A stretch of DNA of 64,000 bases from the NCBI RefSeq assembly GCF_022201045.2, contig NC_068559.1, positions 27,907,501-27,971,500 of the forward strand, written 5' to 3'. This DNA comes from Citrus sinensis. Taxonomy: Eukaryota; Streptophyta; Magnoliopsida; Sapindales; Rutaceae. How positions within the stretch are numbered: the stretch's first letter is position 1; the number at the start of each line of letters is the position of its first letter. The notes beneath the pieces are model-generated. The model worked only from the letters and a program-made list of their open reading frames with translations. It searched no databases and was not told the DNA's origin. Position numbers and translations under genes: made by a program. Positions 1 through 58,705 of the stretch are shown here, piece by piece.

Positions 1-185
1 TCACTTAATTTTGCCACTTAGCACATTAATTTAATTGGATTTGGATCCAATACTTAGTTGATTTGTACTCAACTCTTCATAATCTTCTACTACGCGTACA
101 TGTATAGCAATATACATTTAAGATTTAATTAGTTTTATATTCTTATATAATAACTATCAATTGTATCTTTCAAATATATATATCA

Positions 186-340
186 GAGCAGTTTTCCAAT
201 TAGGAATCTCTGACTTTAATAAAGTCAAGGATTAGCTAAAAGACAAAAAAAATTAAATTTTAATGCACTACATGACAAAATATAGTGCATTGAAATTTGT
301 GTTTATTTTGTTTTTTAGCTACCCTGATTAGAAAACTACT
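186..340. repeat. Fold-back (MITE-like) element
   Basis: The arm GCAGTTTTCCAATTAGG near 188-204 is the imperfect inverse of CCTGATTAGAAAACTAC near 323-339. A second inner stem (AATGCACTA near 262 with TAGTGCATT near 282) closes the hairpin. The flanks are TA-rich, so no target duplication can be read. This is probably an old MITE, with family not assigned. Confidence 0.45.
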
Positions 341-723
341 ATATATATGTATATGTATATGTATATATTGAACTTGGAAAAAATGACAAATCAAATCCAA
401 CCAAACTTTGATATTTCATTTTAAGTCAATTAGGAGCGATACTAATTCCATTCTAAATTTTATAATACTAACACAATATTGAATCAAATGATCACTAAAA
501 CATCAAAATAAATCAAAATTTCAATTGAAATTAATTGTACGGAGACCGTGAACGTATAATTTTGAAAACATAGAACGTAAAGAAGATAAAACCATGCAGT
601 AGTAGAGTTTCCTGAAAATTGGAGAGGTTAGAATGATAACAATAATTTCATATATGGTTGGACCTTTCAGGCTTCAATCTATATGTTGAAAAAAGACAAC
701 ACATAATACACAATCACACACTT

Positions 724-737
724 AAATAAATAAATAA

Positions 738-770
<33 letters not shown>

Positions 771-796
771 TAAATAAATATATATATATATATATT
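724..796. repeat. TAAA/TA microsatellite
   Basis: Alternating runs of TAAA and TA repeats, first TAAA, then TA, then TAAA, then TA again. Simple-sequence DNA. Confidence 0.9.
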
Positions 797-914
797 TACC
801 CATAAAAGCTTAAAAAAAAGAATTATTATTTGTACAAAATTGTTTATGGTTATAATTATTTTTTTAAGAAAGATGTGTGAGCGCCCTATTTTTTTTTAAC
901 GTGGGCACGTCATT

Positions 915-1010
915 AAGCCGTGCGGTTTAATAAAATAATTATTTAATACACTATAAAGTCGTGCGGTTTAATAGTACTAAAATCTAACTCTATTAAGTGG
1001 CACGACTTAA
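915..1010. repeat. Direct plus inverted copies of a GTCGTGCGGTTTA motif
   Basis: The motif occurs as AAGCCGTGCGGTTTAATA (915-932) and AAGTCGTGCGGTTTAATA (956-973). An imperfect inverse, TTAAGTGGCACGACTTAA, lies near 993-1010. The arrangement could fold into a stem. It looks like the remains of a small terminal-inverted-repeat element, but I could not place its ends. Confidence 0.4.
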
Positions 1011-1224
1011 AAATATGTCTGTATGAAAAAATAAAAAAATAAGGACACTAGCCCCAAAAAAAGACTATATCTATCTATCTATTTTAGACAATAGGGTTTT
1101 GAATATTGGTGTTAATTTTATTTTGTAGTTATGGTATTAAAATTAAGATAAGCTGAGAACAAATAAATAATAGCCAGAATTTCATTTCATTTTAGAGATG
1201 AATGCAATGATAATATAACAATAC

Positions 1225-1291
1225 TTCATATGACATTCTGAATAACCAAACTGATTTTTCATATGACATTCTTAATGACCAAACTGATTTT
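1225..1291. repeat. Tandem duplication, about 34 bp x 2
   Basis: Unit TTCATATGACATTC followed by AATAACCAAACTGATTTT is repeated immediately as TCATATGACATTC followed by TTAATGACCAAACTGATTTT, with a few substitutions. Local slippage-type duplication. Confidence 0.7.
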
Positions 1292-2517
1292 CTTGAAATA
1301 TCCTTAATGTGAAAGGAGAAACAATTAAGCACACATATAGCTCGAATAAATTAAACGCACCCACCTCATTTGTTAGAACAAGTAATTAAAAGCTGACAGG
1401 ACTTTGTAATATTGAATCCTCCGATTGTAGTTCTGCAATTTCATCTAATTTTGGGAAGCTAATAAATCAAAACGTGTGGGTCAATTAGCCTCGTAGGTAA
1501 AAATCATTTAACGAAATGATATTTGATCAGGATGTGGGACTTTCTGAAAGTTTTTACTCCCAAGAATAGGATCAGAAAATAATTAGAGTAGTAGAAGTTA
1601 GAAATTTCCTGAATGATAGGCTGGCTTCTCTCTCTAAAGAATCAAAAGCCAATAAGTTAGTTTACTAATAAGGTTGATTAGTGGTCCCTTAATAAGACTT
1701 AAGGGTATCTCTAAATAAACACAAAATCTGACAGAGTCAGTGGAATAGAAGCTCTGGGGAATGGAATAGAAACTGAATTTTCGGATTCTGAGGCACTAAA
1801 ATTACTAAATTAATCTTTAAGTGGGTCTGATCAGAATTTATCATCAGTTGAATATATTTTTGAGCTTGTGTATTGGAAGTTGGTTTAGGGTCCACGTTTC
1901 CAAATATTAATTCAAATAAAGACCACACTTAAAATATTGTTTCTTTGGAAGCTAGCTTTGTCTTGATTTGCAGTGGATAGGGCAAAACGAAAAAACTCAA
2001 ATCTGATGATGGATGAAAAATCAAAGACAGATTCACAAATCCCCACAAGCTGCTGATTTTGTAGTATCCTTGAGATTCCTCAATTTGGATTAATAAACTA
2101 ATTACCTCAAATTACTGGGTTCATTAAGGCACAAGTAAAACAAATCAAGCTACATAAGTAAGAGAAGACTCAGCTAATTAAATTTAACTTCATTAAGTTG
2201 TTTGTTTAATTTCTTGGTAGTTGTTGCATTGCTTTGCTTAATTGGCTTCAGCTTGTGAGTTGTGATTGAGCCAACGCGTTCCTCGCTAAACACACACTTC
2301 TTTAAAAGTCACCAGGAAAGACGGCTGATCCTTCGGAGGCAGAACCCTCCTCAGGAAGCATATATTGCTTTCATATTAACTGAACCCTCCACTTTCAAAA
2401 CAACACAGACAACTTTGTGTTTTAGGGTTTCTTGCTTTCACTTCACTTCTTCTGTGATTGAGTTTAAGGGTTTCTTGCTATTAGCTAGGGCTCTTAATTT
2501 TGAAAGCTAATTAAGCG

Positions 2518-4083
2518 ATGGATGAGAGAAATGAAAATGATAAGCTGGATGAAATCTTGCTACCAGGGTTTAGGTTTCATCCAACTGATGAAGAACTTGT
2601 AGGGTTTTATTTAAAGAGAAAGATTCAGCAAAGGCCTCTCTCTATTGAGCTCATCAAGCAACTTGACATTTATAAATATGATCCGTGGGATCTCCCAAGT
2701 AAGATGATAAATCAAAACTCATGCATATTTTTTTTAAGTGTCTTCATAATCTCTATACATGCATATATATATATACATAGAGAGAGAGAGAGAGAGAGAG
2801 AGAATGAATCTTACAAATTATTTTTTTGTGCTATTTGATCAAACAGAGTTGGCGACTACAGGAGAAAAGGAGTGGTACTTTTACTGCCCCAGGGACAGAA
2901 AATACAGAAACAGTGCAAGGCCAAATAGGGTAACTGGAGCTGGGTTTTGGAAAGCCACAGGAACTGACCGGCCTATCTACTCATCAGAAGGAAACAAGTG
3001 CATTGGCTTGAAAAAATCGCTTGTTTTTTACAAAGGCAAAGCGGCTAAAGGCATCAAAACTGACTGGATGATGCATGAGTTTCGGTTACCTTCTCTAATT
3101 GACTCTGTGCCGCCTAAGAGATTCATGGACAAAACAATTCCTGCCAATGTAAAGTATCCTCAAAATTATCAAACAGCTACCTAGTTCAACAAATGTTCAT
3201 TAATATTATGTCTTGATGTCATCTTAAATATTTTTAGAGCTAGCCAGCACTATAAATAAGTTACTACTGTTTGCTTTTGCAGGACTCTTGGGCTATATGC
3301 AGGATTTTCAAGAAAACAAACTCCACAGCGCAAAGAGCTCTGTCCCAATCCTGGGTCTCTCCATTGCCTGAAACAGCCTCAAGTACTGATGCACATGTTA
3401 AAAGCTCATACAACACTCAGTTCAGTTTAACATCATCAATGGCGCAGTACTTCAACTGCAACAATGATATACAACAACAGCCATCGTCATCTTCTTCTTG
3501 TCTTACTAATACAAGTACGAATAGTACATTTTCGCCTTTCGATTTTGTCCCCTACAAACCCATTAACCCAGTGATCATTAGCAAGCCTCATCACCAGCTT
3601 CCTAATATTTCGTCCGGAGACCTAACTAGCAGTTTCATGTTTTCACCGTTTGAACCAACTATCCCAGCAGCTAAGTGCAATATTAATGATGTTTCATCCG
3701 TTTTATTAAGCATGTCATCTGACTCTATGCTTGGAGACTTTGGCAAGGCCTCAGATCAGTGTATAGATTTTGTCGGATCTCAAGATCAGTACAGTGGCTT
3801 CTCAACAACTGCTTTGCCACATTATGAGATGCAAGCAGCAGTGACAGACATCAGCAACGGAGATCATCATCTTCATCATGAGGATGTTTTGATGAAGAAC
3901 CAACACATGATGAATCATGTTGATGATCAGTGGGAGAGCACCGTTAGACCTATTGGGTTTCCTTTCAGTTTGCCGATGATGAGTTTGGCTGCAGAAACTT
4001 GGAAGCCTAGCTCGCTGTGGGATTGTTCTTCGTGCCCAAGAGAGATATCAACTAGTGTTTCTACAAGCAAGTTCATGTTATAA
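2518..4083 (+). CDS. FEZ: NAC-domain transcription factor, FEZ-like
   Basis: Nuclear DNA-binding transcription factor of the NAC family. The coding exons are 2518-2698, 2847-3148 and 3283-4083 (GT-AG introns; joins restore [16 protein letters not shown] and [16 protein letters not shown]), giving 427 residues. The N-terminal NAC domain (about residues 15-172) shows subdomain A ([15 protein letters not shown]), B, C ([20 protein letters not shown]), D ([33 protein letters not shown]) and E ([11 protein letters not shown]). The C-terminal half is low-complexity, rich in Ser, Gln, Asn and His, as expected of an activation region. The NAC domain resembles Arabidopsis FEZ, which promotes root-cap stem-cell divisions, and an eL34 gene next door matches the Arabidopsis FEZ-RPL34 neighbourhood as I remember it. 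The first intron contains an AG microsatellite. NAC identity is certain. The FEZ versus close-paralogue (ANAC094-type) call is likely but not proven. Confidence 0.9.
2779..2802. repeat. AG microsatellite in NAC intron 1
   Basis: About twelve AG units within the first intron of the NAC gene, just upstream of the exon 2 acceptor at 2845-2846. Confidence 0.9.
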
Positions 4084-5490
4084 TTGGTAGTATTCCATGC
4101 AGTTATTAGTTGAAATTTTTAATTAGCTAACTAGCTGTAGGCAGCAAGTTCATGTTAGGAATTATATTAATTAATTGTTTGCTCTAACATGTACGTAAAA
4201 TCTTAATTAAGTTTTGTAGGCCTTTGAACACTTTTCTAGTTATATTAGATTTGAAAGCCAAATGGTATGTTTATTCTGCAATTTAATGATGATTTAATTT
4301 TTATCATGGACGGCATTTGAAAACAAAAAGAAATTATTAGTTGACATGATGTGAGTATTCTGCGCATTCCTGATTATCACTTTAAAAATAGTTAGACTAT
4401 TACCACCCCTCTAATCTCATCATAAAACCCTTTAGTTATTTTTATTTTTAATTTTTAAAAACGCCCTTTTTTTATGCACTCTTTATTTTTCTAATTTAAT
4501 TTTTTATTGTTAAAATTCAATGAAGTATTCTGTTATTTTTCTTTTCTTTTGTAATCTTGTTGTTATCCTATACATGAATTTAAAGTTTCCTAGATGTTGA
4601 ATTTTTAAATGTCAATCATTAAGTTAAATTATACATATTTTAAATTATAATTTAAAAGCAATATTAGTTATAAAAGTTCTTAATCAATAATAAATAGGAA
4701 AATGATAATAAATTATTCTAAACTTTTAACGATTTATTTTAGTTAGATGGAAGTGACAGGTAGAAAACAAAAAGAAAAAAAAATGGATTGATTATTAATG
4801 TAAGTAATTTGTTTGAAAAATTTATAAGTATGTTTAATTCTTTGTTGTTCTTAAATATAATTTGAGTAATGATATAGCTACAAATTCTTGTACAAACTTA
4901 TTTTGTACAAACTGATGTGGCATGATAAAATTGGTTGAATTAAATATTTTTTGGCCCACATGATTTATTTCTATTATTTTATATTTTCATTCAACTAATG
5001 AATTAATGACATATCAGTTCGTATAAGATAAATTTATACAAAAATTTGTAGTTGTATCATCACTCATATAATTTTATTAGTAGTGGGGTTTTAGAATGAT
5101 AGTGAAGTAGTGCCAATAGCTTCACTTATTTGAAAAGTGAGACCACCATGAGTTAATAGTAGGCCTGTTGAAAAAGCCCACTAAGCCTTAAACCTGATTA
5201 TGTAATGGGCTTAAATGAATGGGCTTTAAATCTGTTTATTTCATGATTCATGATTGGTTGAGCGCCGAGTCGTATCGTGCCCTCATAGATATGATGACCA
5301 TTCATAGCTATGATCTGTTCAACTTGGTTCTCCAAGTATCCGACTTTTGTTTCTAATCAAAACACCCCAAACATTTTTATAGCATTATCATTTCATTGAC
5401 CAATTAGCAGAGAAACAAAAGGTTCCTCTGCCCAACTCTCATAAATAAAAGCATCAAAACCCAGTTCCAGGGCCAAAACAGACCGAGAGA
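4084..5490. other. Intergenic DNA between NAC gene and GST relic
   Basis: Contains the NAC 3' flank, in which GCAGCAAGTTCATGTTA at 4141-4157 echoes the last coding bases, then AT-rich sequence and one complete Mutator-type MITE (4864-5065). I see no gene. Confidence 0.6.
4864..5065. mobile_element. Mutator-like MITE with perfect 9-bp target duplication
   Basis: The 202-bp element begins GAGTAATGATATAGCTACAA and ends TTGTAGTTGTATCATCACTC. The two ends are imperfect inverted repeats for roughly 55 bp. It is flanked by identical 9-bp repeats ATATAATTT (4855-4863 and 5066-5074). A 9-bp duplication with terminal inverted repeats is the signature of Mutator-like elements. It has no coding capacity, so it is non-autonomous. 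Confidence 0.85.
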
Positions 5491-6165
5491 ATGGAGAAGC
5501 AGCAAAGTGAGGTGGTGTTATTTCGGCATTGGGTTTTGGGTAAGAAAGCGCCTTCACCCACAGAGTTGAACTAGCCCCGTAAGCTAAAGGGCAAAGCTTA
5601 CGTGTACGTTGGGGAAGATTTAACAAACAAGAGTGACTTGCTTCTTGACTATAACCCTGTCCACAAGAAAGTACCCGTTCTGGTGTATAGCGGCCAGTCC
5701 ATCGCGGAGTCGCTCATCATCCTTGAATACAGTGATGATTGCTGGAATAATACTGCAAAATTACTGCCTGAGGATCCTCATCAACAAGCCAAATTGCATT
5801 TGGGCAAAGTTCTATTGATCAAAGGTTACTATTACTAGCTTGCTTTACATGCCTAATTGCTTCTCTATCTTTCAAGGCAATTTAGAAGTTACCAAGCACA
5901 TTTCTAATCATATCCTCTGAAGGTGAAGAGCGAGAGATGGCGATGAAGGAGTTCAGTGAGTTGCTGAGCTGTGTTTGAAAGAGGAATTATAAAATAACTT
6001 CCCAAATAATTCTTTCTTTTCCAATGGTTGTCGTCTTGGCGGGTTAAGATTTCTTGACATAGTGGTGGCTGCATTTCCTCAACCAAGCTTTTGAAGAGGC
6101 TTATGCTCTGGGTTTCCTCAACCTTATAAACCGCCAAGGCTTTCTCTCATGGATCACTGCTCTAT
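5491..6165 (+). pseudogene. Tau-class glutathione S-transferase pseudogene
   Basis: The frame from 5491 reads MEKQQSEVVLF, then LKGKAYVYVGEDLTNKSDLLL, YNPVHKKVPVLV, SIAESLIILEY and LLPEDPHQQAK, which is the thioredoxin-fold half of a plant tau GST. The usual segment after the start that carries the catalytic Ser region (WASPYALRVKLAL in intact genes) has been replaced by unrelated sequence ending in an in-frame stop at 5572-5574. After about 5840 the frame is lost. The second half is recognisable only in pieces: SSEGEEREMAMKEFSELL near 5910-5960 with a stop soon after, and RFLDIVVAAFP near 6048-6080. Normal tau GSTs have about 220 residues and one intron near residue 105. The gene is dead by several independent lesions. 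No other GST is present in the window. Confidence 0.85.
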
Positions 6166-6937
6166 AGGGCAACCATTTAGTAAAGGAGACGCTCCTCCAG
6201 GTACCTCCTGTTTAATTATATCTAGGTGTTGCACACTATATTGTTTCAAATAATCTTAGTAATGATGTTGATCGGGAAGACACATCAATGCTGTATCCAT
6301 AGTTGTATTGCACAGTCCCAAGGGATGGCAAATATGATTTATTCCCAGCTCTTTGCTTGGAGAAAGAAAATAAAGTACTACAAAAAATAACACATTCAAT
6401 GCAATCAGATAGTGAGACCTGCAGGACCACCGAACAAGACAAGACCTCCTGGCATTTTTTATTTTTGTCTTTGGATACAACTTCTACATTACAATGGCTT
6501 TAGAGTTCAGTCTCAAAGTCTTTCCATCACCCAATCTCAACAATATAACCAACAATGGGGCGGGAAATGTTGGTGTTGCAGTGGAAAAAGAAACATAGGA
6601 GGAAATTTTGGTTACCCAAGTTAGAAATGAAAGCACAAAGGATTAAGAGCAAATACCACATTAGCCACTTTTGATATCCCAAAAATAAAGGTGGCTGGAA
6701 CCACTGATCTGATATATTTAAAAAGGAACTCTAATGGCATTAAATTGATAAAAGTACACAAAACAGCACCACAATGGTTATCAACTGAGTGCTTTAAGAA
6801 TTTAGTTCATATGAGCAAGTGCGGGATTACAATTTCAAATAAAGAAAAACCTAGATTACTTCTCCATGAGTCAATATCATCATCCAAAACAACAGATATT
6901 CTAAAAGGTAGTTCGAAACTCATTAAATATTTCAGTC
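6166..6937. other. Intergenic / 3' flank of eL34
   Basis: No recognisable gene. Short open stretches exist on both strands, but none has a family signature. The right part is presumably the eL34 3' UTR. Confidence 0.5.
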
Positions 6938-8455
<1,518 letters not shown>

Positions 8456-49376: not shown

Positions 49377-51504
49377 TAATAATAATGTTTACAAAGCTTG
49401 GAAAATATTTTGATTCAGCGGGTGTTTGACTTGATTGGTCACATTTTCTTTGCTATGACTTGTGTTTGAAGAAACTTTCAATTACTTGGATTGTTGAATT
49501 CTTACTACGTGTATCTTTTACTGAATTACGTAAAAATAATTACTTGGTAGGAATATAGAATCTATAAGATAACGAACCGGCAAAGCTCTACTGTTGAGCA
49601 TTCATGGGTCAAAAAGATCTCAAATATTTCCAGTTACTGTATAAGTAAAACAGAACTCTGTTGGATTGGTACACAAAGCTGATGGCAAAGCGTTGGTGGA
49701 CATTAGATTAGATGGGATCATTTTGTTTGTTGTCAAAAACACAAGTGGCCCAGTCGCCATCATCTAAAATCAATAACACCTTTTTTTAGTACGATTATTT
49801 GCGAAGCTGGGGCCTGCCAAAATATATATATACGCTTGTTACGCGATTTCATATTGACATTCATGATTTAAAAATAAAAAAAATAAAAAAATTTGTTTAC
49901 ATTCATACTTATCAATTGTTGCTTACGAACCCATAATGCTACGACAGTCTATTATCAATCATCTTATCAGATAATGAATGGCAAATGGATGTACAAGTTT
50001 TGATAAAATTAACTAAAGTGCATGATTCTATATTTCTAGTCTGAGAAGCACTTTTTTTTAGAATGACTCTTCCCCTTCCCCTACCGGCCCCTCACCCTCA
50101 GCTATATAAGATGAGGCATGGGCTGTCTATTTAGGATATGAATGTTGACCAAGCATTCCTCACTTACCCAGTGGCAGTCACTACTCAAATGACACCTAAC
50201 TTTTGCCATGAGCTAGAATGGAAATGCTTGAAATGCATCCATGCCACCAACTTTCACAAGCGGAGCAGAAAGAAAGAGACTAGGGGCTAGGGATGCTCTC
50301 GATCATCAGTATTCTTTTTGGAGTGGTGATTACTGTACCTGCACATATATATTTGACAATGTTGATATTTGGAGATCGCTGATTTACTTGGAATGACTAA
50401 ATGCTCTGGAGAGCCAATATGCAAGTTAACTAGCGGCACCAAGAATGAGCCAATATACAAATTAAAGAAGAGAGATGATGAGCCTTGGCGCTAGATGATT
50501 GAGAAGGTCTGATTTGCCCAGCAATGGGATCGCGTCTCCAGTATAATCACAAGCGTCTGAAGGATTTAAACATGCCGTCAGTAATGTTCACGAATGGAGC
50601 TCAACAAATAACGTTAACATTTTGATTATCTTTGTAGTTCATCAACAGTTGTACAATTCTAGGTTGATAAACTGTTCTGCTGATGTACTTAATTATCGCA
50701 CTTTCCCGACCAATCCGTGTTTTGAATAATAAAGATAAAAACTTTAAGAAGAAAAGTGGTCAAAATTATCATAAAATAATAAATTTGATAATATATTTAA
50801 ATTTATCGCAGGAATGAAATTCAAGAGTGTAAAAACTGCAAAAGCGGTTAGTGAGGACTAAAATAATCGGTGATTAAAGCTAAAGGGCTCAGTTAATTTA
50901 GTTCCGTAAGTTTCATTAGAATGAACATGCTGTTATAAGGTAGATTCAGATACTGATAAATCATAAATACTGCAAAAGGGTTGGTCATTTTCCCGCATGA
51001 AGACCTGGTGACGTTGAAACTTTACAGACATGCCAGATCCTTAACAAATACTTTGCTATGTACAAATTTCATTTTCATTTATTGGAGCTGCATAGAAGTT
51101 ACTTTGTAAGAACAACCTCGGCATGCCTGAAAATGGCTGGTGTGCATAAAAAGTTAGATAGCTAGACACATCGCAAATCAAAGCAGAGCAATCAAAATAA
51201 AGGCTCATCACCAAGCATTTGTTTTGGCATGTGAGTGGTTTCCCTTTTGAAAACTGAATTGAAACCATTACAGATAGCTGAGGACACCTACCTAATGCTT
51301 TTTCCTTGGTGATGTTGAATGGAAATCTACTCACCCTCACAATCTTTTTTCCATAATCCATGCATCCTATTTTATTATTAGGATCAATCAATAATAGAGG
51401 TACTTTATCACACAAAAGTATATCCCCTCTGTTTATATATACCGAAGTTTTAGGCGATAGGATTATACTTTTAGGCGATAGGATTATACTTTTAGGCAAC
51501 AAAG

Positions 51505-56065: not shown

Positions 56066-56781
56066 TGAAATTGATTTAACCAGTAATCATTTGGAGAAAT
56101 GTATCTTGGCCTTGTCTAGTGTCCATTGTCACCCCAGATATAAGTGAAAAATGCTGTAGTAGTGCTAGTGGGTACTTCATTGCATTGACTACTTAGAGGC
56201 TTTGCTTGTGCCCCATGTCATTTGAGAACGTGGAAGAATGTGCAAATGGAGAACCCACTCAGGATTCCCCACGTAAGTTACTGAGGTAAAGGAAATATTA
56301 AATCATTAAATTCAACAATTGAGAATTTAGATACATTCTCCATGTAAAGAGATTCATTTGAACCAATCAGAAATAATTAAAAAAAATTTGCTATATATGA
56401 CATTATGTTGTGCTGGAATTTTCTCTTCTGGTAAGTATATAAAAGTTTTGTTGATTACAGCACCTCTATCTTTATATTAGAACTGAACTGTTCTCTTGCC
56501 ATGTCTATGACATATCATTGCAAGATCTTGACAGCATCCCGCCATCATTAAAATATACCAAAAACAGACTCAATTTCTGCCAGGCCCTTGGTAGTCAAGA
56601 TTTGGCTATGCTAAGAAAGAATCTCAAATAGCAACCTTGTGCACATGTTTCACAGAACAACAAAATATATCAGCGTGGTGCTTCACAACTTCTTGGTCAC
56701 ATGATAATATTTTTGCCGATAAATCAGCATGGTGCAATCATTTACACCAGTGCATCAACACTTTTCTCTTTAAACAAATCC
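56066..56781. other. 3' flank of the PPR gene
   Basis: No gene or repeat end recognised. The stretch ends at the Mutator-like element, whose left target duplication AACAAATCC is at 56773-56781. Confidence 0.6.
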
Positions 56782-57090
56782 GGGAAATTTACAAAAATAA
56801 CCATGAATATTTTGTTATTTTCACAACTAATCTTCTCAATTTTTTTCTATCAACATTAGCCAAACACAAGCCTTTCTCCCCAAATTACCCTTCTTTACAG
56901 ACCAAAAGCAACAATCTTTCTCCCATATCGTCAAACCAAACGCAGCTTAATCATCAACCAACGGCGACGGCAAAAGACAACGGTAAAAGTGAAATCCGAT
57001 CATAATTTATCCGAATCCAACACTAATCGGCATCACTTAGTGGTATGACTTATTTTCTGAACTTGCTGAACTGAGTCGTGGGTGAATCTG

Positions 57091-57226
57091 GCGACAGGCA
57101 GGCTGTCGCACTAGGCAAGGTGCGACAGGCAACCTGTCGCACTAGGCAAGGTGCGACAGGCAACCTGTCGCACCAAGAGTTGGTGCGACAGGCACCTGTC
57201 GCACCTTGCTTGGTGCGACAGGCACC
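57091..57226. repeat. Cluster of GGTGCGACAGG palindromes
   Basis: Four consecutive near-perfect palindromes of about 20-25 bp: 57091-57110, 57119-57142, 57149-57174 and 57182-57205, followed by a half copy with GGTGCGACAGGCACC at 57212-57226. The core arms are GGTGCGACAGG and CCTGTCGCACC, with two to four bases between them (AA, CA or similar). They are spaced by CTAGGCAA or AAGAGT linkers. A fifth palindrome of the same sequence lies 670 bp away at 57897-57922. GC content is far above the surroundings. Each could extrude a hairpin in DNA or RNA. Confidence 0.9.
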
Positions 57227-57896
57227 AATTTAAAAAAAAAACAAACTTGAGAATTATGTATGACGTGAGCCCATAGCCAGTTGAACCCAATTTTCACTTT
57301 CCAATATTATATGTGTTGAACGAACTTTATGTGTAAGAGGCCCCACGCGATTTCATGTTAGTCTCAGAGGGTTTGAAGGCAAGTGCAATACGTTTTAACT
57401 TGGATTTATTTATTTAAAAAAAAAATGAAAAAGTTCAATGTATCATGACAGAAAATTCATTGCTTTCTAGGTTGCCAAGGGAGAAAGATGATTCCTCCGC
57501 CGTACCAATATATGAAGCCTTGAATTCTTTATAGTTATATACCATGGCTTCTTTATCAATCAACACATGCATGTAAAGAGAGATTTGAAAAAACAAGAGT
57601 CAGTTTGATACAGAGTCTAGTGTTTCTTAAAAATTAGCAAAACAAATGTCAGTTGATAGCCAATGCAACAAAGAAGCCGGAATTTTTGGAAACCGCGTAA
57701 TCATGCACAAATATCTGGAAACGGTGGTTGATTGCATGCATTTTCTGTTGCTGTATAAACTCCAGGGATTACATGCACAAATATCTGGAATAACAAATGC
57801 ATGTTTACAGAGTTGCAGTTGCGCTAAATGATCTCAAAAGGGTTCAGCAATGACAGAAAAGAGGATGCGATACAAGCCGACCTGTTTCCGAAGCTT

Positions 57897-57922
57897 GGTG
57901 CGACAGGCTGCCTGTCGCACCA
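57897..57922. repeat. Outlying copy of the GGTGCGACAGG palindrome
   Basis: TGGTGCGACAGGCTGCCTGTCGCACCA is a perfect palindromic pair around a two-base centre. It lies just left of the captured lectin fragment and is the same motif as the 57.1-kb cluster. Confidence 0.9.
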
Positions 57923-57980
57923 AAAATGGTTGTCCTGTCAGGCAATGTGTACCAGATGCTTAAGGATCACGATCTCCAGG

Positions 57981-58228
57981 TTCAACACTTCAAAACTGTT
58001 GCTTTATGGCAACGCAAAACTGGATTCCGGTGCCATTTCACTCACCCAAGATACCACCTTCTCCATCGGAAGAGCTCTCTAACATGCTAAGATCCCCTTA
58101 AAACATACAAACTCATCAACCGTTGATCATTTGAAACATCTTTCACCTTCTCCATCACCCCATACAAGGGCCAGCGTCCAGACCATGGTCTGGTCTTCAT
58201 CTTCGTGCCTTCCGCAGGCATCCAAGGA
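57981..58228 (+). pseudogene. Legume-lectin-domain gene fragment captured by the MULE
   Basis: One frame reads FNTSKLLLYGNAKLDSGAIS, LTQDTTFSIGRAL, then a stop and HAKIPLK. A shifted frame continues FETSFTFSITPYKGQRPDHG, LVFIFVPSAGIQG. These are the first strands of an L-type (legume) lectin domain as found in plant lectin receptor kinases, where the intact text would read RALYP-KIP at the stop. About 80 of some 250 lectin residues remain. No signal peptide, kinase or rest of the lectin is present. It has a stop and a frameshift, so it makes no functional protein. It is bounded by a 21-bp direct repeat (57962-57982 and 58224-58244). Confidence 0.85.
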
Positions 58229-58705
58229 TCACGATCTCTAGGTTAAGGCCAAGCCTTGTCAGGAAGATCACTGCTGTTGCCCAGCGACGGCCGCCGACGA
58301 TGGGAGGTTCTTCGGTTTGGGAGAGATGGGAGAAAGAGAGATTGTTGGGGGAGAAAGGGGTATTTTGGTCTCAAAGGCTTTTTTATGGCTAATGTTGATA
58401 GAAGTTTATTTGAGTGGTTAAGATGGAAAACGCGTAAATTTTTATGGCTATTGGTGTAAATTTCCCAAGAAATCCAGAAAGCACAGGGGGAGGGAGAGGA
58501 AGATGATGTGGACTTTTCAATCTTCATCAAATACAGTCTCTTATAGTTGTCACGGGACGAGGTTTTGATTTTTCCTAGTCTGTGTAACTGGTGAATAAAC
58601 TTGTTTCAATAGATATATCATCCTTGATTCCTTGTAACTGCAACAGTATTTATACATATGCTTCATTATGAGGGTACTATAATCCATATACTGTTTTCAT
58701 TCCAT

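Follow-up and report, generated by a model that had tools for sequence, protein, structure and literature searches.

Subterminal arrays of short motifs are already known from CACTA transposons, from VANDALs and from mosquito Mutator-like elements (MULEs), and MULEs containing a ULP protease gene have been described as well. In CACTA elements the subterminal repeats are bound by TNPA-type proteins; soybean Tgmt* carries 28 such repeats, from which 14 palindromes can form (PMC2613891). For the VANDAL MULEs of Arabidopsis, VANC anti-silencing proteins are described, which the elements encode and which bind a short motif repeated in non-coding tandem arrays and remove methylation, together with related elements that have changed motifs (PMC5735166, PMC10398659). 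Among the mosquito MULE families with long terminal inverted repeats (TIRs), such as Muta1, 10 out of 12 possess short subterminal repeats of 9-15 bp (PMC5225508). Finally, KAONASHI and other ULP-containing MULEs combine a transposase gene with a ULP protease gene in opposite orientation, and ULP has been found in melon and grapevine TIR-MULEs too (PMC2528002). The words “subterminal” and “hairpin” are absent from the text of the latter paper, and the word “palindrome” is absent from the main texts of the two VANDAL papers. Among the papers listed in a search of titles and abstract beginnings, with incomplete coverage of the literature, none describes a TIR-type ULP-MULE with palindromic arrays on its left as well as its right. 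The papers listed as full-text matches to 9-mers and 10-mers of the motif reported below are, by their titles, not about plant transposons, and those that also matched transposon terms are not about plant MULEs.

Here, we analysed a group of palindromes in a stretch of 64,000 nucleotides of Citrus sinensis contig NC_068559.1, hereafter the window (Table 1). Judged by its sequence, the element in which they sit is a non-autonomous MULE. It begins with GGGAAATTTAC and ends with GTAAATTTCCC, and it has what is expected of a MULE, imperfect TIRs of about 110 bp (84% identity between 56782-56812 and 58436-58466, 83% between 56845-56890 and 58358-58403) and a 9-bp target-site duplication (TSD) conserved at 8 of 9 positions. 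Neither CACTA termini nor a 3-bp TSD is present, and its clear TIRs separate it from Arabidopsis KAONASHI sensu stricto, a non-TIR element, as well as from VANDALs, which are also MULEs but are described with degenerated TIRs. CitMule from Citrus is likewise a plant MULE with a 9-bp TSD; as described, however, it is of the FAR1/Jittery type without long TIRs and falls in a different MULE group (PMC4334395).

Table 1. Features of the palindrome-bearing element, in window coordinates
Feature	Position	Strand	Remarks
Non-autonomous MULE copy carrying the palindromes	56782..58466	+	1,685 bp; TIR arms, sister copies, L109 matches
TSD, left	56773..56781		AACAAATCC
TSD, right	58467..58475		AAGAAATCC, 8/9 identical to left
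Left TIR, imperfect	56782..56890	+	inverted repeats I1 + I4
Right TIR, imperfect	58358..58466	-	inverted repeats I1 + I4
Left subterminal half-site array	57091..57224		TRF, 31-bp period
Palindrome 1, degenerate	57091..57109		GCGACAG/CTGTCGC
Palindrome 2	57119..57143		outermost pair mismatched, right arm end CACT, spacer CAA
Palindrome 3	57150..57174		perfect 11-bp arms, spacer CAA
Palindrome 4	57182..57205		perfect 11-bp arms, spacer CA
Half-site GGTGCGACAGG	57212..57222	+	inner end of array, without full partner
Fifth palindrome, right part of element	57897..57921		perfect, spacer CTG on + strand

The genome was searched with this element and 40 of 640 candidates were scored, giving 156 matches of which many are pieces of arrays. 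Besides the window copy, at least 38 matches begin no more than 3 bases from the left end and extend over 330-677 bp at 83-96% identity. Positions 1-442 of the element match the left end of a full-length relative, L109, at 90%, and positions 1509-1685 (177 bp) match its right end at 79%; between them, the interior gave no match to L109 at E<=1e-4 apart from pieces of the palindromes. The window copy would be a short derivative devoid of genes, able to move only in trans, in which the sites were retained. An array is likewise present in other short copies that have retained both TIRs, for instance one of 1,088 bp in L002, indicating that gene-less copies keep the sites. L017 and L018, sister copies that exceed the window element in length, have an ORF piece in common with L023. 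In L023 the longer ORF shows similarity, below cut-off, to a plant bHLH ACT-like domain (PF22754, 1.2e-5), and the common piece may be a captured host-gene fragment, as in a Pack-MULE. Elsewhere in the window, a perfect 21-bp tandem repeat of 2.4 units, TTTTAGGCGATAGGATTATAC, lies at 51448-51497.

A sequence-only reading of the window had pointed to five near-identical palindromes, four in a row and one apart, GC-rich within an AT-rich element and too regular for chance. This arrangement is present, with slight corrections of detail: the fifth palindrome lies 675 bp further on, palindromes 3, 4 and 5 are perfect, palindrome 2 has one mismatch, palindrome 1 is degenerate, and the row closes with a half-site. 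The motif counts do exceed chance. Indeed, GGTGCGACAGG at up to 2 mismatches occurs 15 times in the window against 3.2 expected, a number that none of 100 shuffles reached, and exact GTCGCACC occurs 8 times against 0.27 expected, above all 100 shuffles. The contrast in composition is also clear, with 63% G+C in the array and 40% in the remaining element. TRF describes the array as 4.3 copies of a 31-bp unit, within which the orientation alternates from half-site to half-site.

We then characterized L109, a full-length copy of 7.7 kb (115-7848) flanked by a TSD identical at 9 of 9 positions (AAAAAAAAT). Its transposase ORF, from an ATG at 689, matches PF10551 (MULE, 2.9e-20), PF03108 (DBD_Tnp_Mut, 1.9e-9) and SWIM (3.5e-7), while separate ORFs on the minus strand match PF02902 (C48, Ulp1; 1.1e-21) and PF09331 (DUF1985, 2.1e-19), all over cut-off. 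The transposase gene and the Ulp1/DUF1985 gene region are convergent, so that a transposase gene with an oppositely oriented ULP gene is common to L109 and KAONASHI, as described in PMC2528002. DUF1985 was also found in L110 and L111. The half-site GTGNGACAGG was found 28 times in L109 against 0.04 expected. Ten of these half-sites form a left array (435-611) between the left TIR and the transposase ATG, and 18 form a right array (6782-7304) between the DUF1985 ORF start at 6687 and the right end. A splice-acceptor-like TTTCAG lies at 678-683, directly before the ATG, and also occurs in other leaders (clade A below, e.g. L099 and L105); the array may thus fall in a leader exon or in an intron. 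In many copies, an ORF starts inside the arrays with MDSVVLELCYDG.

Arrays on both sides are not specific to L109. Indeed, they were found in all three copies of which both sides were read (L109, L076+L110 and L078+L111). The two sides are not always alike. One copy of clade B2 (defined below) has like motifs in its left (L078) and its right (L111) array, TTTGTGCGAC[A/G]GG. In one copy of clade B1, the left array (L076) is of the A type and the right array (L110) consists of eight GTGCGACAGG half-sites with no other GTGNGACAGG. The two ends therefore need not change together, and the idea we had considered, that the two strictly follow the transposase clade, is unsupported in this copy, the one B1 copy read. 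Besides half-sites, the right subterminal region of this copy (L110, 3264-4064) contains a dense mosaic of GC-rich palindromes of the CTCGCGCGAG type.

To what extent the sites accompany the transposase was assessed in a sample selected blind to the motif. The first 114 transposase residues served as query, 150 of 591 candidates were listed, and the 700 bp upstream, here called leaders, were taken from 20 clade A copies (88-100% identity) and 20 clade B copies (78-82%). This N-terminal protein search did yield transposases near palindrome clusters; matches to the PF10551 profile, of which 150 of 899 candidates were considered, included no transposase less than 7.8 kb from any cluster. Half-sites at up to 1 mismatch are present in 38 of the 40 leaders (18/20 in clade A, 20/20 in clade B), and in none of 200 Markov resamples per clade. 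At up to 2 mismatches the numbers are 19/20 and 20/20, against 3.0% (A) and 4.5% (B) of the resamples; the leader of L092 has one half-site with 2 mismatches, and that of L095 has none, nor an exact TIR start within its 700 bp. Clade B comprises two groups: B1 (14/20 leaders) has GTGAGACAGG in both arms and arrays of GTGAGACAGGCGCCTGTCTCAC or near it, a C-to-A change that is the same in both arms, and B2 (6/20) has arrays that read TTTGTGCGACAGG....

The sites thus recur in both clades. With the half-sites masked, clade A leaders gave no blastn match at E<=1e-3 to B1 or B2 leaders, bearing in mind that the 700-bp B leaders may miss the TIR, whereas B1 and B2 matched in 84 pairs and clade A leaders matched each other in 352 pairs. 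How well the sites are conserved within clade A counts for little, since these copies look young, with 4-9% of TIR positions changed. CpG decay gave no signal of hypomethylation: across the 24 of 25 loci that were aligned, 8.8% of TIR CpG positions were changed and 8.1% of other G/C positions.

The genome-wide motif search that the sequence-only reading had proposed gave many copies. With spacers of 0-12 bases allowed, there are 217 exact copies of the palindrome against 0 for a reversed control, and the 11-bp half-site is present 1,212 times (587+625) against 35 (18+17). We placed 193 of the 217 palindrome sites in 102 clusters, and checked for a TIR all 5 clusters of contig 1 and 20 hand-picked from contigs 2-9. 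At each of these 25 clusters, blastn matched one of the two TIRs of the window MULE family, left or right, within the same stretch; in L064 and L068 this match is partial and close to the stretch end. Among the other 77 clusters, some coincide with matches of the window element. Many copies, each checked cluster being accompanied by the TIR of one MULE family, point to an element-specific part. As a control for other MULEs, eight 1.1-kb stretches selected by PF10551 (16 were first requested) were analysed; because they may not be true leaders, this control is weak. With the same reservation, 7 of these 8 possible leaders had no half-site at up to 1 mismatch, and none of the 8 possible leaders had a GC-rich palindrome with arms of at least 9.

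These data bear on the idea, raised by the sequence-only reading, of a self-propagating hairpin module. Many dispersed copies are what an independent mobile hairpin inserting into many elements would leave, and two near-perfect 1.29-kb foldbacks, L120 and L121, carry sites and do not match the clade A TIR queries. However, the presence of one family's TIR at 25 of 25 checked clusters speaks against it, and one half of the foldback gives matches of 140-260 bp, at 75-85%, to clade B1 leaders. We therefore regard such a mobile hairpin as highly improbable. L120 (1-1285, C2:3538500-3539784) is 98.5% self-complementary over 1,285 bp, has mixed GTGC and GTGG half-sites, and is similar to clade B1 leaders at 75-85% in its left half. 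L121 (C2:2140300-2141400), on the same contig, is 98% identical to it over 1,071 bp. Both, the only foldback copies read, resemble the clade B1 leaders of the same MULE lineage.

The number of units varies freely: some copies have a single palindrome, whereas L061 has 20 exact half-sites and L065 has 12 in one direction. Slippage therefore does occur. The sequence-only reading had held that a motif both unique to this locus and varying freely would indicate simple local tandem slippage; free variation is indeed seen, and uniqueness is contradicted by the 217 palindromes in the genome. One rival explanation is a neutral or selfish minisatellite, in which the leader of an ancestral MULE gave rise, a single time, to a palindromic unit that expands and contracts by slippage and hitchhikes with the element without function. 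The wide range of unit numbers, the 31-bp tandem structure and the variable spacers are consistent with it. It accounts less well for half-sites recognisable between clades whose masked leaders give no mutual match, for left and right arrays in all three copies read at either side and for sites in nearly all motif-blind leaders. Linkers around the anchored core point the same way: most positions in the clade A sets are below 0.7 bit, although some close to the core, for example -5, -4 and +22, are not. In B1, linkers are mostly at 0.3-1 bit, which weighs against the binding-site reading proposed below. We consider a functionless minisatellite unlikely.

Another explanation is that the hairpin itself is functional, either as cruciform DNA aiding synapsis or cleavage, or as a transcribed hairpin that provides a leader RNA structure or a source of siRNA. 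The window array folded alone has a very stable predicted structure (RNA -110.3 kcal/mol, z -13.1; DNA z -12.3; 200 shuffles each). Sites lie upstream of both gene starts, B1 has the same C-to-A change in both arms, and most exact half-sites keep an inverted partner at up to 2 mismatches within 10 bases: 15/21 in the clade A sample, 105/113 in the element-chosen sample, 24/28 in L109 and 120/177 in B1. In B1, 57 of the 177 exact half-sites are nonetheless partnerless, which argues against a hairpin; we dropped the same argument for clade A, where most exact half-sites are partnered. No Rfam family was matched at gathering score.

Compensatory changes, expected of an RNA hairpin selected for its structure, were sought by tallying changes per position between adjacent inverted half-sites whose arms have up to 3 mismatches from the consensus. 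This tally is descriptive: strongly changed arms are under-counted, and inherited changes are counted repeatedly among related copies. Within clades, compensating doubles are rare. In the motif-blind clade A sample (29 pairs, 17/20 loci) there are 70 single changes, 1 paired double and 9 unpaired doubles (1/80 compensating); in the element-chosen sample (93 pairs, 25/25 loci), 147, 3 and 9 (3/159); in B1 (88 pairs), 127, 20 and 1 (20/148); and in B2 (42 pairs), 75, 1 and 19 (1/95). Of the 20 paired doubles in B1, 19 concern the outermost position; the letter chosen there is never common to both arms. Compensation was thus not evident in a tally biased to arms near the consensus. A generalised palindrome, GTGNGACAGGN{0,4}CCTGTCNCAC, occurs 605 times in the genome with C:G at position 4 in 329 cases, A:T in 87 and others in 189; among 50 that were listed, 32 have C:G, 4 have A:T and 14 are unpaired.

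Hairpins that aid transposition, which the sequence-only reading had suggested, thus agree with the retention of inverted partners and lack support from covariation; we hold a functional hairpin to be quite unlikely. The dyad and the sequence are kept and pairing as such is not, so that a dimeric protein fits better than a hairpin. Among the options of that reading, binding sites fit best, given that the half-site sequence persists from clade to clade and that the arms change singly. With moderate confidence, and by analogy with the TNPA sites of CACTA elements and the VANC sites of VANDAL MULEs, we propose that the palindromes form subterminal arrays recognised by a dimeric DNA-binding protein, probably one that the element encodes.

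In such recognition arrays, the short site would be GTGCGACAGG, with GCGACAGG as its most conserved part, usually in inverted pairs every ~31-35 bp. The TIR-type MULE lineage with a Ulp1/DUF1985 region would keep these sites in both subterminal regions, from the terminus to the nearest gene start. The DNA-binding protein, most likely a product of the element itself, would bind the paired half-sites as a dimer or as an array, mark the ends and control the two facing promoters. Its purpose could be end recognition for transposition or a VANC-like anti-silencing; the position of the arrays would serve both a transposition protein and the two promoters.

Compared with what is described of the known systems, the citrus arrays resemble the CACTA/TNPA arrangement in having inverted short-motif arrays inside both ends that are unequal between ends and diverge between subfamilies (PMC2613891); they differ by the MULE transposase, the termini and TSD, and an unrelated motif. 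The VANDAL motifs, YAGTATTAY and AGTTGTCC/AGTTGTAC, also differ from the citrus one (PMC5735166, PMC10398659). Divergence of the motif arrays with lineage, a VANDAL-like trait, is seen in part: arrays are present and the left motif differs in B1, but the right array of L110 does not. Mosquito MULEs are alike in having non-autonomous copies with variable repeat number and foldback character. Muta1, however, is described with 12-bp tandem repeats within the TIR and a 10-bp palindromic terminal motif (PMC5225508), whereas the citrus family has inverted pairs between the TIRs and two gene starts, and a Ulp1/DUF1985 region in addition. A further, tentative idea, which we consider possible rather than probable, is that TIR-type ULP-MULEs evolved palindromic half-site recognition upstream of both genes independently of VANDALs and CACTAs. 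An element protein would then keep the genes unsilenced or define the ends, with a motif that shifts between clades (GTGCGACAGG, GTGAGACAGG, TTGTGCGAC[A/G]GG).

An abundant TIR-type ULP-MULE with palindromic arrays at its left and right would represent a form analogous to the known subterminal arrays. Because sister clades within the same genome differ in their motifs, they provide a natural comparison set for the divergence of transposons and their control sites, and GTGNGACAGG arrays could serve as a simple annotation marker for the ULP-MULEs of this lineage. Finally, the enigmatic Ulp1/DUF1985 gene would gain a concrete role that can be tested.
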